Below, piece by piece: positions 19,052 through 26,681 of a DNA stretch of 64,000 nt. Source of the stretch: Pseudomonadota bacterium (GTDB lineage Bacteria; Desulfobacterota; Binatia; Binatales; Binataceae); NCBI GenBank assembly GCA_021324885.1, contig JAJPIF010000018.1:1-64000 (forward strand), given 5' to 3'. A model generated the notes under the pieces. It did not search any database. It worked only from the letters and a program-made list of their open reading frames with translations, and was not told the origin of the DNA. Both the position numbers and the translations under genes were made by a program. How positions within the stretch are numbered: the first letter of the stretch is position 1; the number at the start of each line of letters is the position of its first letter.

Positions 19052-20511
19052 AGCTTTGAGATGCGTGACGCCTCCTCGCCCTGCGACCCGCCGTCGGGCC
19101 GCGCGCCATCTACGCCGTCGGCCACGGGAGCAGGAAAGTCGCGCACGCGCGTCCACGCGCTGAACGGACCCGGCATCCGGCGCAGGTAGCCGTCGCGTGC
19201 GAACGGCTTGAGCATCAGCGCGCCCATCCTGCCCGCGATTCTCATCAGCGCCGGATATCTCGCCGCGCGCGCGAACAGGCCGGCCGCCGCTCTGACGCGG
19301 GCCGGGGCCAGCGGCCATGCGACCTTCTCGCCCTCCCCCTCAGTCATCTTCCATCGCAGATGGAGCAGGATTCGCGGGATATCGATCCTGACCGGGCAGA
19401 CCTCCTTGCAGGCGCCGCACAGGGTTGACGCAAACGGCAGATGGCCCGCGGCGGCGGTGCCGAACAGCGACGGACTGACGATGGCGCCGATTGGACCCGG
19501 ATATGCCGATTGGTAGGCATGACCGCCGATATGGCGATACACCGGACAGGCGTTCAGACACGCGCCGCAGCGCAGACAGTAAAGCGCCTCGCGCAAAACC
19601 GGATCCGCCAGCATCCGCGTCCGCCCGTTATCCAGCACCACCAGATGCATTTCACGCGGCCCGTCCGAATCACCTTCCCGCCGCGGCCCGTTCAGAAAGC
19701 TGGTGTAGGCTGTCAAGCGCTGCCCGGTCGCGGTGCGAGCCAGGATTTCGAGGAAATGGCTGAGGTCCTCGAATTTGGGAATCACCTTTTCGATTCCCAT
19801 CACCGCAACATGAATACCGGGCGTGGTGGTGCAAAAACGCCCGTTGCCCTCGTTTTCGACGATGACCAGCGTGCCGGTCTCGGCGACCGCGAAGTTGACG
19901 CCTGTGATGCCCATCTCGGCGTTCAGAAACTTATCGCGCAGCCGCTCGCGCGCCACCGCGGTCAGAGCCGACGGATCGGCGGTATAGCCGACTCCCAGCT
20001 TCTGCGCGAAAAGCTGCCCGATGTCTTCCTTTGAAAGATGGATCGCCGGTGTGATGATGTGCGAAGGCGGCTCGCGGCGAAGTTGCACAATATACTCGCC
20101 GAGGTCGGTTTCGACCGCTTCTATTCCGGCCTGCTCCAGCGCGGGGTTGAGAGCGATTTCCTCGGTGGCCATCGATTTGCCCTTGACCACCCGCTTGACA
20201 CCTGCCGTTTGCGCGACCTTGACAATATAATCGCGCGCCGCTGCCGCGTCCTGGGCAAAGAAAACTTTGACTCCGCGCTGCTCGAGCCGATCCTTGAGTT
20301 CAGCCAGAAGCTGGTCGAGCCGCTGGATTGAATCCTCCTTGATGCGGCGGGCGACGTCGCGTTCGCTCTCGTACGCAGCGAATTCTTTTTTCGCCACGGC
20401 CAGATGCTCGAAATGGCGGGCGCTCGCATTTTCCAGCTTGCGGTTGAGTTCCGTATCAGCCGCCGCCCGGTTGCTGGCGGCATAAAAAGCGTCGGGCCCG
20501 CTGGGCAGCAT
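19048..20511 (-). CDS. lutB: lactate utilization protein B, LUD plus 4Fe-4S ferredoxin subunit
   Basis: The protein has about 487 residues. The N-terminal half is a LUD domain (KGKSMATEEIALNPALEQAGIEAVETDLGEYI region, GVNFAVAETGTLVIVENEGN). The C-terminal half carries two 4Fe-4S motifs, CLRCGACLNACPVYRHIGGH and CGACKEVCPVRIDIPRIL, and a tail with the LutB_C character. The ATG at 20511 follows the SirB1-family stop by two bases; a TTG at 20517 would overlap that stop. The product passes electrons in the LutABC lactate dehydrogenase. The family is normally induced by lactate through a regulator that is not seen here. Confidence 0.9.
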   Translation of the reverse strand: MLPSGPDAFYAASNRAAADTELNRKLENASARHFEHLAVAKKEFAAYESERDVARRIKEDSIQRLDQLLAELKDRLEQRGVKVFFAQDAAAARDYIVKVAQTAGVKRVVKGKSMATEEIALNPALEQAGIEAVETDLGEYIVQLRREPPSHIITPAIHLSKEDIGQLFAQKLGVGYTADPSALTAVARERLRDKFLNAEMGITGVNFAVAETGTLVIVENEGNGRFCTTTPGIHVAVMGIEKVIPKFEDLSHFLEILARTATGQRLTAYTSFLNGPRREGDSDGPREMHLVVLDNGRTRMLADPVLREALYCLRCGACLNACPVYRHIGGHAYQSAYPGPIGAIVSPSLFGTAAAGHLPFASTLCGACKEVCPVRIDIPRILLHLRWKMTEGEGEKVAWPLAPARVRAAAGLFARAARYPALMRIAGRMGALMLKPFARDGYLRRMPGPFSAWTRVRDFPAPVADGVDGARPDGGSQGEEASRISKL

Positions 20512-23174: not shown

Positions 23175-23753
23175 ATGTTTGCCGCTGTGCGCTATCTGTT
23201 ATCGCCGTGGCGTCTGCGCTTCATGCGCCGTTACGCCAGACCGGCGATCTACGAAATGCGCGGGCGGCTTGACCAGTTCGCATCGCGCAAGGCGCGAATC
23301 TTTACCACGACGCTGCTGGACGCCAACGCCGAATTCCTTGCCCGCGCATTTTCTCCAGCGGGTACTTTGTCGGGCTTTCGCGATCGGGTCACCATGCAAT
23401 CGGTTCGCACCTGCCTTGGCTCGATGCTGATTTACTCGGCGAACCTGGTTGCGCGCAACGAGATGGCGCGCGACGGTGGTGAACTGGTGACGCTGGTAAG
23501 CCGGGTGCTTGGGGTGAGCCGTGAGAGTGTGATCATACGGCGTGAAATCCTGCGCAAGTCGCCGAGCAGCGAGGAATGGATGCTTTACACCTGGCTGTTG
23601 AAAGATCTCGACGCGCCGGCGCCGAAATTCGATCCCGCGTTGGAGCAATCCTTCGGCTACCACTATCTTTCCTACATCGGCCAGTACAAAAACATTCTTG
23701 AAAAGAACATTCCGGCGGCGAACAGGACGCGCGGACGGGCTCAAAGGCATTGA
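23175..23753 (+). CDS. hypothetical protein, coupled to a FabG-like gene
   Basis: This 192-residue basic protein is not one I recognise. The N-terminus is rich in Arg and aromatic residues (SPWRLRFMRRYARPAIYEM) and could lie along a membrane, but there is no clear signal peptide. The middle is mostly helical with NLVARNEMARDGGELVTLVSRVLG. Its stop codon overlaps the start of the next gene as TGATG, so the two are translationally coupled and may share a function in acyl metabolism. It lies 55 bases beyond the terminator, so it probably begins a new transcript. Confidence 0.6.
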   Translation: MFAAVRYLLSPWRLRFMRRYARPAIYEMRGRLDQFASRKARIFTTTLLDANAEFLARAFSPAGTLSGFRDRVTMQSVRTCLGSMLIYSANLVARNEMARDGGELVTLVSRVLGVSRESVIIRREILRKSPSSEEWMLYTWLLKDLDAPAPKFDPALEQSFGYHYLSYIGQYKNILEKNIPAANRTRGRAQRH

Positions 23754-24502
23754 TGAATCGGGCACTCGAAGGCAAAGCAATCATCGTTACCGGCGCGACC
23801 CGCGGTATCGGCCGCGCCATCGCGCTTGAGATAGCGCGGCAAGGCGCCAACGTCGCCTTCAATTATGCCAGCAACGCTGAAATGGGGGCTGCGCTCCAGG
23901 ATCAATTAACCTCCACGGGCGTCAAGGCGCTGGCGTTTCGGACCGACGTCGCCGACCTCAAGGGAGCGCGAGAGATGGTCGCCGCCACCAAAGCGGAGTT
24001 CGGCAAAATCGACGGGCTCGTCAACAACGCCGGCATCACCCGCGACAAACTGCTGGCGATGATGAGCGAAGAAGACTGGGCCGCGGTAATCCAGACCAAT
24101 CTGACCGGTGCCTTCAATTTTGCGCGCGCCGCCATCTTCAATATGATGAAGGCGAAAGCCGGTTCTATCCTCAATATCTCTTCGGTCAGCGGCCTGTCGG
24201 GGATGGCTGGTCAGGTCAACTATTCGGCCTCCAAAGCCGGGCTCATCGGGTTGACCAAGGCGCTGGCCAAAGAGGTCGGCCGCGTCGGCATCCGGGTTAA
24301 TGCGCTGGCACTGGGTTTCATCGAGACCGACATGACAGCCGCGCTCCCCGATCAGAACCGCAAACAGGTTTTGGACCTCATACCGCTGGGCCGGTTCGGC
24401 CGCGTGGACGAGGTGGCGCCGATGGCGGCGTTCCTGATGTCCGAGGCGGCCTCCTACATCACGGGCGCCGTGATCCAAATCGACGGTGGTCTCGCAATGT
24501 GA
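23753..24502 (+). CDS. fabG: 3-oxoacyl-ACP reductase-like SDR (FabG family)
   Basis: The protein has 249 residues with all classical SDR motifs: TGATRGIG cofactor loop near residue 14, NNAG (VNNAGITRDKLLAMM), Ser in NISSVSG, and the YSASKAG active-site Tyr and Lys. The block NNAGITRD and the C-terminus VIQIDGGLAM are typical of FabG, which reduces 3-oxoacyl-ACP with NADPH in fatty-acid synthesis. The ATG at 23753 overlaps the preceding stop (TGATG). Many SDRs are present in the window, and this one is the closest to true FabG. It may instead act on acyl-CoA. Confidence 0.85.
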   Translation: MNRALEGKAIIVTGATRGIGRAIALEIARQGANVAFNYASNAEMGAALQDQLTSTGVKALAFRTDVADLKGAREMVAATKAEFGKIDGLVNNAGITRDKLLAMMSEEDWAAVIQTNLTGAFNFARAAIFNMMKAKAGSILNISSVSGLSGMAGQVNYSASKAGLIGLTKALAKEVGRVGIRVNALALGFIETDMTAALPDQNRKQVLDLIPLGRFGRVDEVAPMAAFLMSEAASYITGAVIQIDGGLAM

Positions 24503-24654
24503 GGAATGAGAAAAGAGCAGTCAGAAAAGAAAAGCCCTTGATTTTCTCACTGCTCTTCATACCTCGCTCTCCTCCAACTGTGGAGCGTCGTCCGCCGTTG
24601 CCGTGTGTTTCACTTGAAACGGCCTACGTCTGCCACCATAATTTAGATGTGGCG

Positions 24655-25167
24655 ATGCAAGAAAACTCTTCGGTATTTTACGAAGCGCCGCCTCCACAGG
24701 CCTCGCGTGAGCTGGCGGAGCTGCGTCAGAATTCGGATTATTCCCCGCCTTTCCAGGTAATCCGCCGCCGCGTTATTGACGATTATAACGAAGGCAAAAT
24801 GACCACCGACGCCACCGTCGTTATCCGGATTGGAGATGTCGAAGAGACCGAAGCGGCGCGCGGAGTCGGCGTGGTCAACGCCTTGGACCTGGCCTTGCGC
24901 AAGGCCTTGCTCAAGTATTTTCCTTTCCTGAGTTCGGTGCGAGTTACGGAAACCTACACCCATGGCAGCGGCGAATCGACCGAGGCCGAGGTAATCTCGG
25001 TCAAGAAGTTCTCCGACGGTCAGACCACGTGGACGACGATGGCGAAGTCGGCCAACACGGTCGAAGCGGGGTGGAACTCGCTGGTCGACGGCTATGAGTG
25101 GCGGATCAATATGGAGAATTTCCGCACCCGCCGACTAACAGGGAACCCCCGCCTGTCGAGCCGTTAG
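24655..25167 (+). CDS. stand-alone LeuA/CimA-type allosteric (dimerisation) domain protein
   Basis: This is a protein of about 170 residues. From about residue 35 onward (VIRRRVIDDYNEGKMTTDATV, ARGVGVVNALDLALRKALLKYFP, AKSANTVEAGWNSLVDGYEWRI) it matches the C-terminal regulatory domain of 2-isopropylmalate and citramalate synthases (LeuA_dimer, PF08502), which binds leucine or isoleucine. No catalytic HMGL-like barrel is encoded with it. The ATG at 24655 is chosen because the conserved part starts soon after; no strong ribosome-binding site is seen. cysS follows 83 bases downstream. A role as a separate regulatory subunit is an inference. Confidence 0.75.
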   Translation: MQENSSVFYEAPPPQASRELAELRQNSDYSPPFQVIRRRVIDDYNEGKMTTDATVVIRIGDVEETEAARGVGVVNALDLALRKALLKYFPFLSSVRVTETYTHGSGESTEAEVISVKKFSDGQTTWTTMAKSANTVEAGWNSLVDGYEWRINMENFRTRRLTGNPRLSSR

Positions 25168-25250: not shown

Positions 25251-26681
25251 GTGAAACCTTTTTTTATCTACAACACCCTCAGCCGCACGGTGGAGGAGTT
25301 CGTCCCGCTCAAACCCGGCGTGGTGACGCTTTACTCGTGCGGTCCGACCGTGTACCTGCCCCAGCACCTGGGAAACATGCGCACTTATCTGTGCACCGAC
25401 ACGCTCAAACGCGCGCTGAGGCTCAACGGTTACCAGGTGCGCCACGTCATGAACATCACCGACGTGGGCCACATGACCTCCGACCAGGATGCCGGCGAGG
25501 ACAAAATCGAAAAGACGGCTCGCGCCGAGGGCCGATCGCCAAGGGAAGTAGCCGACTACTACACCCAGTTATTCATCCGCGACCTCGAAATGCTGCGGAT
25601 CGAAAGGCCGACCGTTCCGCCGGGGCAGTTTTGCCGCGCCACCGACCATATTGCCGACATGATTGCCCTGATCCAGCGTATTTTGGATCGCGGGTACGCC
25701 TACGTCGTCGGCAGCGGGGTTTACTTCGACGTCGAGAAATGGCGCGGGCCCGGCGCCAAGGGACGGCTATCGCGTCAAAGCCTGGAGGAGCAATATTCGG
25801 AACAGCGCCTCGAACACGCTTCCGACAAGCGCAGCAAGCACGATTTCGCGCTGTGGGTGCTCAATCAGCCCCACCATCTGATGCAATGGGACAGTCCCTG
25901 GGGCCGCGGCTATCCCGGATGGCATATCGAGTGTTCGGCGATGTCGATGAAATACCTGGGCGAGACGCTCGATATCCATACCGGCGGCCTGGATCACATC
26001 CCGATCCATCATGAGAACGAGATCGCGCAGTCCGAAAGTGCAACCGGGAGGCCGTTCGTGCGCTATTTCGTCCATTATGCTTTCCTGGTCGGGATGGAAG
26101 GGGCAAAAATCAGCAAAAGCTCCGGCAAATTCCCGGTGCTCACCGATCTTATCGCAGCGGGAATCGATCCGATGGCGTTCCGTTTGTTCTGTCTGGGCGC
26201 CAAATACCGGTCCGAACTCGCCTTCAGCCTCGACGCGGTGCGCGCCGCGCAAACCAACTTCGAATACTTTACGGAATTCGCCCGCAGCATGCCGCCGGAC
26301 GCGTGCAGCGCGCCTGACAGCGGGTGGACGCAATCGTACTTCAACCGTTTCATCGATTCTCTCAACAACGACCTCAACACGCCGCAGGCGCTCGCGGTGA
26401 CGCTGGAATTGATCGGCGAATCCTACCGCCGCAAGGACCGCTGCGTGTGGAGTACGCTGACCAAAATGGACTCGGTGCTGGGACTCGGCATGGAAGAAAT
26501 CCGCCGACAGGCGGCCAGCCAGACCTTGCCCACCGAAATCGAGGCGCTGCGAGCGGAGCGCGACCAGGCGCGCCAAAAAAAGGATTTTCGCCGCTCCGAC
26601 GAGTTGCGAAGAGAGCTTCAAGCGCGCGGCTACGAGGTAAAGGACACGCCTTCAGGAACAGTGCTCCAGCCACGGAGGTGA
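25251..26681 (+). CDS. cysS: cysteinyl-tRNA synthetase
   Basis: The protein has 476 residues and the class I synthetase signatures. The HIGH-equivalent is PQHLGNMR after the zinc-binding SCGPTVY, with further zinc-region residues in GWHIECSAM, then GGLDHIPIHHENEIAQ and the KMSKS-equivalent KISKSSGKF. The C-terminal end carries the ARQKKDFRRSDELRRELQARGYEVKDTPSGT block typical of CysRS. It charges tRNA-Cys. The start is the GTG at 25251, just before KPFFIYNTLSRT; upstream in-frame codons overlap the preceding gene and are not homologous. Confidence 0.95.
   Translation: MKPFFIYNTLSRTVEEFVPLKPGVVTLYSCGPTVYLPQHLGNMRTYLCTDTLKRALRLNGYQVRHVMNITDVGHMTSDQDAGEDKIEKTARAEGRSPREVADYYTQLFIRDLEMLRIERPTVPPGQFCRATDHIADMIALIQRILDRGYAYVVGSGVYFDVEKWRGPGAKGRLSRQSLEEQYSEQRLEHASDKRSKHDFALWVLNQPHHLMQWDSPWGRGYPGWHIECSAMSMKYLGETLDIHTGGLDHIPIHHENEIAQSESATGRPFVRYFVHYAFLVGMEGAKISKSSGKFPVLTDLIAAGIDPMAFRLFCLGAKYRSELAFSLDAVRAAQTNFEYFTEFARSMPPDACSAPDSGWTQSYFNRFIDSLNNDLNTPQALAVTLELIGESYRRKDRCVWSTLTKMDSVLGLGMEEIRRQAASQTLPTEIEALRAERDQARQKKDFRRSDELRRELQARGYEVKDTPSGTVLQPRR

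Follow-up and report, generated by a model that had tools for sequence, protein, structure and literature searches.

Feedback control of the isopropylmalate synthase LeuA and the citramalate synthase CimA is built into a single polypeptide, and acetohydroxyacid synthase has separate regulatory subunits, IlvN/IlvH. The folds of IlvN/IlvH, HisZ and Gmet_1956 are unrelated to that of SAB, the protein described here. Excerpts of published work present HisZ as a separately encoded regulatory subunit of HisG (PMC9734150) and Gmet_1956 as a separate regulatory module beside a chorismate mutase (PMC2700814). Like these three, SAB is a regulatory module encoded apart from an enzyme, and a related family, SA2, is in addition partly operonic; unlike in them, the enzyme partner of SAB, CimA, is one that we infer. 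Two proteins of known structure share its fold. The regulatory domain of Leptospira interrogans CimA (LiCMS; 3f6g/3f6h) resembles SAB over residues 31-152, in the GxG helix N-terminus and in the equivalent of T464, but SAB is a separate protein in which Tyr454 is replaced by Thr, Leu or Ser, position 458 is deleted and a Glu/Tyr/His strand is invariant. Mycobacterium tuberculosis isopropylmalate synthase (1sr9, 3fig) has in common with SAB the LeuA_dimer domain (PF08502) and the same fold (Z about 11), but SAB has no barrel and its protein sequence does not match the LeuA of its own host at E 0.001.

The PF08502 family itself is already known, and public databases surely contain such stand-alone proteins under domain names. 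Among the open-access literature matches listed (subscription journals lay outside the scope), a stand-alone LeuA/CimA regulatory domain was not found described; what is new with respect to these matches is that the stand-alone domains form a conserved class, that this class is in part coupled to cimA and that its Binatota branch has an altered pocket.

SAB is encoded in a 64,000-nucleotide stretch of DNA from a member of the Binataceae (contig JAJPIF010000018.1, positions 1 to 64,000), called the window below, by an open reading frame of 170 aa that runs on the forward strand from an ATG at 24655 to a stop codon ending at 25167. The gene and its two neighbours are:

24655-25167, + strand: SAB, stand-alone LeuA/CimA-type regulatory domain protein, 170 aa (assigned from PF08502, the TIGR00977 C-terminus, orthologues and dN/dS)
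23750-24502, + strand: FabG-like reductase, upstream neighbour (TIGR01830, 306 bits), in an order common to many Binataceae loci; a promoter lies between fabG and SAB
25251-26681, + strand: cysS, downstream neighbour (TIGR00435, 401 bits), its GTG start at 25251 set by eye, in an order common to many Binataceae loci

LeuA_dimer matches SAB residues 33-147 (E 5.3e-11) with 43 bits against a gathering cut-off of 24.9, which places SAB in that family, and at E 0.001 it is the only Pfam match, with no barrel detected. The preliminary description had proposed a LeuA/CimA regulatory domain standing alone without a catalytic barrel, and both this assignment and its coordinates hold exactly. The sole NCBIfam match is to the C-terminal end of citramalate synthase, TIGR00977 (E 1.9e-16), where SAB, devoid of the HMGL barrel, scores 59.5 bits and so falls below the full-length cut-off of 450. 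As a search of the host genome with the SAB protein at E 0.001 recovered CimA and not LeuA, CimA is the nearer parent. Between positions 20000 and 30000 of the window, Rfam gave no match at its gathering threshold.

PF08502 occurs at three places in the 96% complete host genome, and HMGL barrels (PF00682) at two. Each barrel has a PF08502 domain of its own, in a LeuA open frame of 565 aa and a CimA open frame of 691 aa, and the SAB gene is the third, barrel-less copy. The cimA gene is on a different contig from SAB; it comes after an aspartokinase-like gene (named by eye). A threonine deaminase match above its family cut-off is also found in the host, and CimA therefore need not be its sole source of 2-oxobutyrate. 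These data bear on the proposal that SAB regulates, as a subunit, an isopropylmalate or citramalate synthase that consists of the barrel only and is encoded elsewhere in the genome, which was suggested by the domain architecture alone and to which the extra barrels in shorter frames of some relatives might be added. With LeuA and CimA full length and no third HMGL barrel in the host, the search for barrel-only homologues came back empty and this reading finds no support there; exactly two barrels occur in 23 of 39 family genomes, the remaining 16 having one or three to five, and we regard such a partner as very improbable. By the test set in the preliminary description, its reading would fall if all leuA and cimA genes of the genome were full length and the gene itself was not conserved: the former is true of the host and the latter is false, as follows.

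In a protein search of 57 genomes, an SAB orthologue was found in 34 of 35 genomes of the same family, its own included, with 68-89% identity among the other copies, two of which are cut by contig ends; the only miss, G006, is a genome 53% complete. Stand-alone copies are also present in all three genomes of family f5 (45-52% identity to SAB) and, more distant at 38% identity, in both genomes of family f2, and a match was absent from 17 of the 57 genomes, all of them of other families of the class. With Pfam, a stand-alone PF08502 copy scored above the cut-off in 37 of 39 family genomes, every one of which also has a CimA-length frame; the two misses were G006 and G019, and for G019 the protein search had shown a truncated copy. 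A scan of named genomes, of which 80 of 137 confirmed loci were covered, found the domain standing alone in 43 cases (L043-L085, of which two are truncated by contig ends) and within CimA-length frames, of 450-660 aa, in the other 37; among these 80 loci, Verrucomicrobia and one Clostridiales genome had CimA-length frames only, and a PF08502 search of three genomes from those other phyla returned only frames of 533-606 aa. One Binatia-type stand-alone domain (L085) is on a contig titled as a Klebsiella pneumoniae metagenome-assembled genome, probably a mislabelled bin.

By the Nei-Gojobori method, comparison of the window with two congeners gives SAB a dN/dS of 0.055 and 0.044 (with dS of 1.3 and 1.6, near saturation), and comparison of the congeners with each other gives 0.084. 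The yardstick genes, which cover the congeners only, give 0.13 and 0.12 for fabG and 0.10 for cysS, and SAB in the window against its copy in another genus (L009) gives 0.15. SAB is thus under purifying selection (dN/dS 0.04-0.15). The gene is moreover preceded by a promoter-like element:

24614-24642, + strand: sigma-70-like promoter, TTGAAA at 24614-24619, 17-bp spacer, CATAAT at 24637-24642, a recurring pattern

The distance from its -10 to the SAB ATG is 12 nt. With spacers of 16-18 permitted, TTGA-N2, spacer and NATAAT were present upstream of the gene in 21 of 32 sequences (the window and 31 loci, L059 having been dropped), the spacer being 17 whenever the pattern was found; in mononucleotide shuffles its frequency was 0.0009 per sequence, for a pattern that was picked after inspecting the same sequences. 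Transcription of SAB thus seems to begin at a start of its own, leaving the mRNA with hardly any leader, if one at all. The adjacency to cysS and a FabG-like gene that had been pointed out earlier is real, and with an own promoter in those 21 sequences the link is a positional one. Given the orthologues, the recurring promoter and the purifying selection, SAB is not a chance open reading frame. The possibility that it is a functionless remnant, in decay, of what was once a leuA or cimA gene was considered as well, since only the C-terminal domain is present; the low dN/dS, a copy in 37 of 39 family genomes, the recurring own promoter and a position in the tree apart from CimA (100/99; see below) speak against it, and we discard this reading as refuted by conservation.

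An AlphaFold model of SAB, built with a 48-row alignment that included 14 CimA rows, and the residues conserved in the SAB family define the following features:

24745-25110, + strand: double beta-beta-beta-alpha regulatory fold, residues 31-152 (AlphaFold pLDDT 86.7; VIA Z 15.0 to 3f6g)
24862-24888, + strand: G70-D78 (GVGVVNALD), N-terminal end of helix 1, at the LeuA/CimA ligand site (G70, G72, A76 and D78 in 43/43 rows, V74 in 42/43)
24949-24963, + strand: E99-T100-Y101-T102-H103, family-specific strand, D-Y-K-V-R in CimA (E99, Y101 and H103 in 43/43 rows)
25048-25059, + strand: S132-T135, N-terminal end of helix 2, which makes up the second half of the ligand site (S132 in 43/43 rows)

The DSSP order of the model is that of a double beta-beta-beta-alpha fold. 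Residues 31-152 superpose in VIA on 3f6g, the isoleucine-bound regulatory domain of L. interrogans CimA, with an rmsd of 2.1 over 117 aligned residues; M. tuberculosis LeuA follows at Z about 11, compared to 7.7 for the best unrelated chain. Ribosomal proteins, dsRBDs and RAD52 chains come next in the fold lists at Z <8, which we take to reflect a common arrangement. In PDB sequence searches, the SAB protein or the family profile retrieved only unrelated proteins (E 0.24 or worse) and the host CimA domain alone gave no match at E 0.01; 3f6g was reached by sequence only with a mixed LeuA/CimA/stand-alone profile (E 6.8e-5).

For the isoleucine site we used the pocket residue list of LiCMS (Tyr454, 458, T464 and others). 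At the Tyr454 position, all 43 SAB-family rows have Thr, Leu or Ser (Thr in the window), compared to 26 Tyr and 2 Phe in 28 CimA rows; position 458 is a gap in all 43 in the alignment, the loop behind the strand being two residues shorter; and the T464 equivalent is kept in all 43. E99, Y101 and H103 stand where CimA has Asp, Lys and Arg. The ligand site of SAB therefore looks, as far as the aligned residues tell, rebuilt rather than decayed, and with the pocket Tyr lost, the loop shortened and Glu/Tyr/His invariant, the protein probably responds to something other than plain isoleucine, or binds its effector in a different way. SAB may still be the free leucine or isoleucine sensor that the preliminary description suggested, although no row of its family has an aromatic residue at the Tyr454 position. 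The loss of the pocket Tyr and of position 458 in every row, with the fold kept, would also fit SAB being a ligand-free pairing partner or decoy of the regulatory domain of CimA (or LeuA) that sets basal activity or stability; that the helix N-termini and T109 of the ligand site are invariant in the same 43 rows is unexpected if no ligand is bound, and we consider this unlikely.

Further stand-alone frames, some beside cimA, appeared in a phylum sample of 148 genomes. A profile (A5) of twelve of these, run over 395 genomes of the phylum, defined a second family, SA2, in 37 genomes, the twelve of the profile included, with E 3e-54 or better, the next matches being CimA-length frames from 2e-31. 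In 16 of the 37, comprising all 13 carriers of f63 and all three of f35, cimA precedes the SA2 gene in the same orientation, a trait that SAB, flanked by fabG and cysS, does not have. On the basis of putative SA2 start codons, eight of these 16 junctions have a possible 4-nt overlap of the cimA stop with the SA2 start (GTGA or TTGA, after GAGGAG or GAGGGG), in four the possible overlap is longer (or, for one of these four, replaced by a gap of 1 nt), one is at 14 nt and three have wider gaps of about 106, 193 and 603 nt. For the other 21 SA2 genes, the cimA barrel is absent from the available stretch, several such stretches being short or at a contig end. In two loci (L123 and L124) the order is tsaE, aspartokinase, cimA and the stand-alone domain, the first two named by eye.

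SA2 resembles SAB in standing alone, in its similar length, in PF08502 and in a Gly-aromatic-Glu-aromatic motif near the end of most rows (by eye), but differs in its cimA linkage, in keeping the CimA pocket residues and in forming its own tree group. In its rows, which were selected by a motif outside the pocket positions, L451, Y/F454, I/V458 and V468 are found in 37 of 37 and T464 in 35. As some relatives are encoded directly behind cimA, isoleucine synthesis may have a control subunit of its own, and a natural reading of SA2 is that it may serve CimA as an additional subunit that senses isoleucine.

When 57 domain sequences were placed in an unrooted tree (with L136 omitted from SA2 as too short), CimA (98/96), the SAB family (100/99), SA2 (100/99) and a pair from f2 (100/99) each fell on one side of a branch. 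The f2 pair, L039 and L040 of genomes G048 and G035, represents a third separate stand-alone group and adjoins mltG-like and MoxR-like genes (by eye). SAB and SA2 may be sisters, weakly so, and all stand-alone domains may form one clade: the grouping of SAB with SA2 received 83/74 with the long-branch warning of the program, and alternatives with SAB next to CimA (p-AU 0.26) or to the f2 pair (p-AU 0.46) were not rejected. What SA2 suggests of function can therefore be carried over to SAB only by inference.

Rates of evolution were compared in 20 genomes, G030 having been dropped for its broken LeuA. Given fabG and LeuA, the rate of SAB correlated with that of CimA at 0.49, with 0.58 for the barrel part of CimA and 0.07 for its regulatory part (permutation p 0.29); given fabG and CimA, the correlation with LeuA was 0.02. 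A comparison over nine genes in 11 genomes, in which every gene was set against the average of the remaining eight, gave 0.42 for cysS, 0.24 for the lyase and 0.16 for CimA. On contig C8 of G030 (L239), LeuA apparently lies in two pieces, a barrel frame of 426 aa and an end of 114 aa, as a result perhaps of a frameshift or an assembly error.

Our preferred reading, to which we give a probability of roughly 45%, is that SAB is a free CimA-type regulatory subunit that probably acts in trans on CimA, its ligand specificity having changed in this lineage. SAB would probably pair as a dimer of double beta-beta-beta-alpha units, a small effector would bind at the dimer interface, and the protein would then pair with, or dock on, the regulatory domain of full-length CimA, so that the pyruvate route to isoleucine would be tuned by SAB. 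Such action is favoured because CimA is the nearest full-length relative, the fold matches, SA2 with its pocket occurs behind cimA, a CimA-length frame accompanies SAB in all 37 carriers, the gene is under purifying selection and the helix N-termini are invariant. Against it weigh the absence of the gene from the vicinity of cimA in the window and its relatives, the weak sister grouping, the loss of two pocket positions, the low rate correlation with the regulatory part of CimA, the rate correlations of cysS and the lyase above that of CimA, the 21 of 37 SA2 genes without a cimA barrel in the available stretch and the 17 of 57 genomes without a stand-alone match. A broader and more tentative proposal is that stand-alone LeuA/CimA-type domains may be free allosteric subunits that make up a class of their own in the phylum, as yet without a name, in which the SA2 branch would be translationally coupled to cimA and sense isoleucine in trans and the SAB branch would have been re-tooled, through its Glu/Tyr/His strand and short loop, for a different metabolite, coupled to isoleucine synthesis or to another target. 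If true, a conserved free control domain with a cimA-linked branch would mean that control is also exerted in trans, as for acetohydroxyacid synthase; it would provide subunit pairs that can be tested directly and show, in a natural case, how a regulatory domain can change its effector, and would give a function to genes that carry merely a domain name.

The main rival to CimA as the partner comes from the pocket and from the gene neighbourhood. The order in many Binataceae loci is lldF, sirB1-like, queG, iscA, fabG, SAB, cysS, cbbQ, a beta-eliminating lyase and an SDR gene, with lldF, sirB1-like and queG named by eye. Of the 30 loci whose downstream sequence was long enough, 25 have a DCC-type motif directly behind the SAB orthologue, and both DCC proteins that were scanned contain PF04134; in L072 the motif is kept, cobyrinate-synthase-like genes (by eye) replacing cysS. 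SAB may accordingly be an independent small-molecule sensor with a target other than CimA, a dimer that would use the Glu/Tyr/His strand to bind a new effector and would control, for instance, the DCC protein. The invariant and family-specific E99, Y101 and H103, the changed pocket and the lack of a cimA link in the SAB lineage are in keeping with such a sensor, but the window has no DCC gene, nor do L043 and L044 (the window's genus) or L045, L054 and L057, and the cimA-coupled relatives show that a stand-alone domain of this kind can be wired to CimA; we regard the sensor as a fair possibility, though less likely than action on CimA. As the DCC gene is absent from some loci and a guaB-like gene (by eye) lies near the stand-alone gene in two f5-type loci, L080 and L085, no fixed partner gene is seen across the whole group.

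The DCC-type genes following the SAB orthologue, of the thiol-disulfide oxidoreductase kind, were seen within L046-L073. Some other features of the neighbourhood are confined to a few loci. A divergent gene of ~670-740 aa, lytic-transglycosylase-like by eye, lies between fabG and the orthologue in L046, L048 and L050. In the window, positions 23175-23753 encode a 192-aa protein without a Pfam or NCBIfam match, which is present in the loci of only four relatives, at 44-70% identity.
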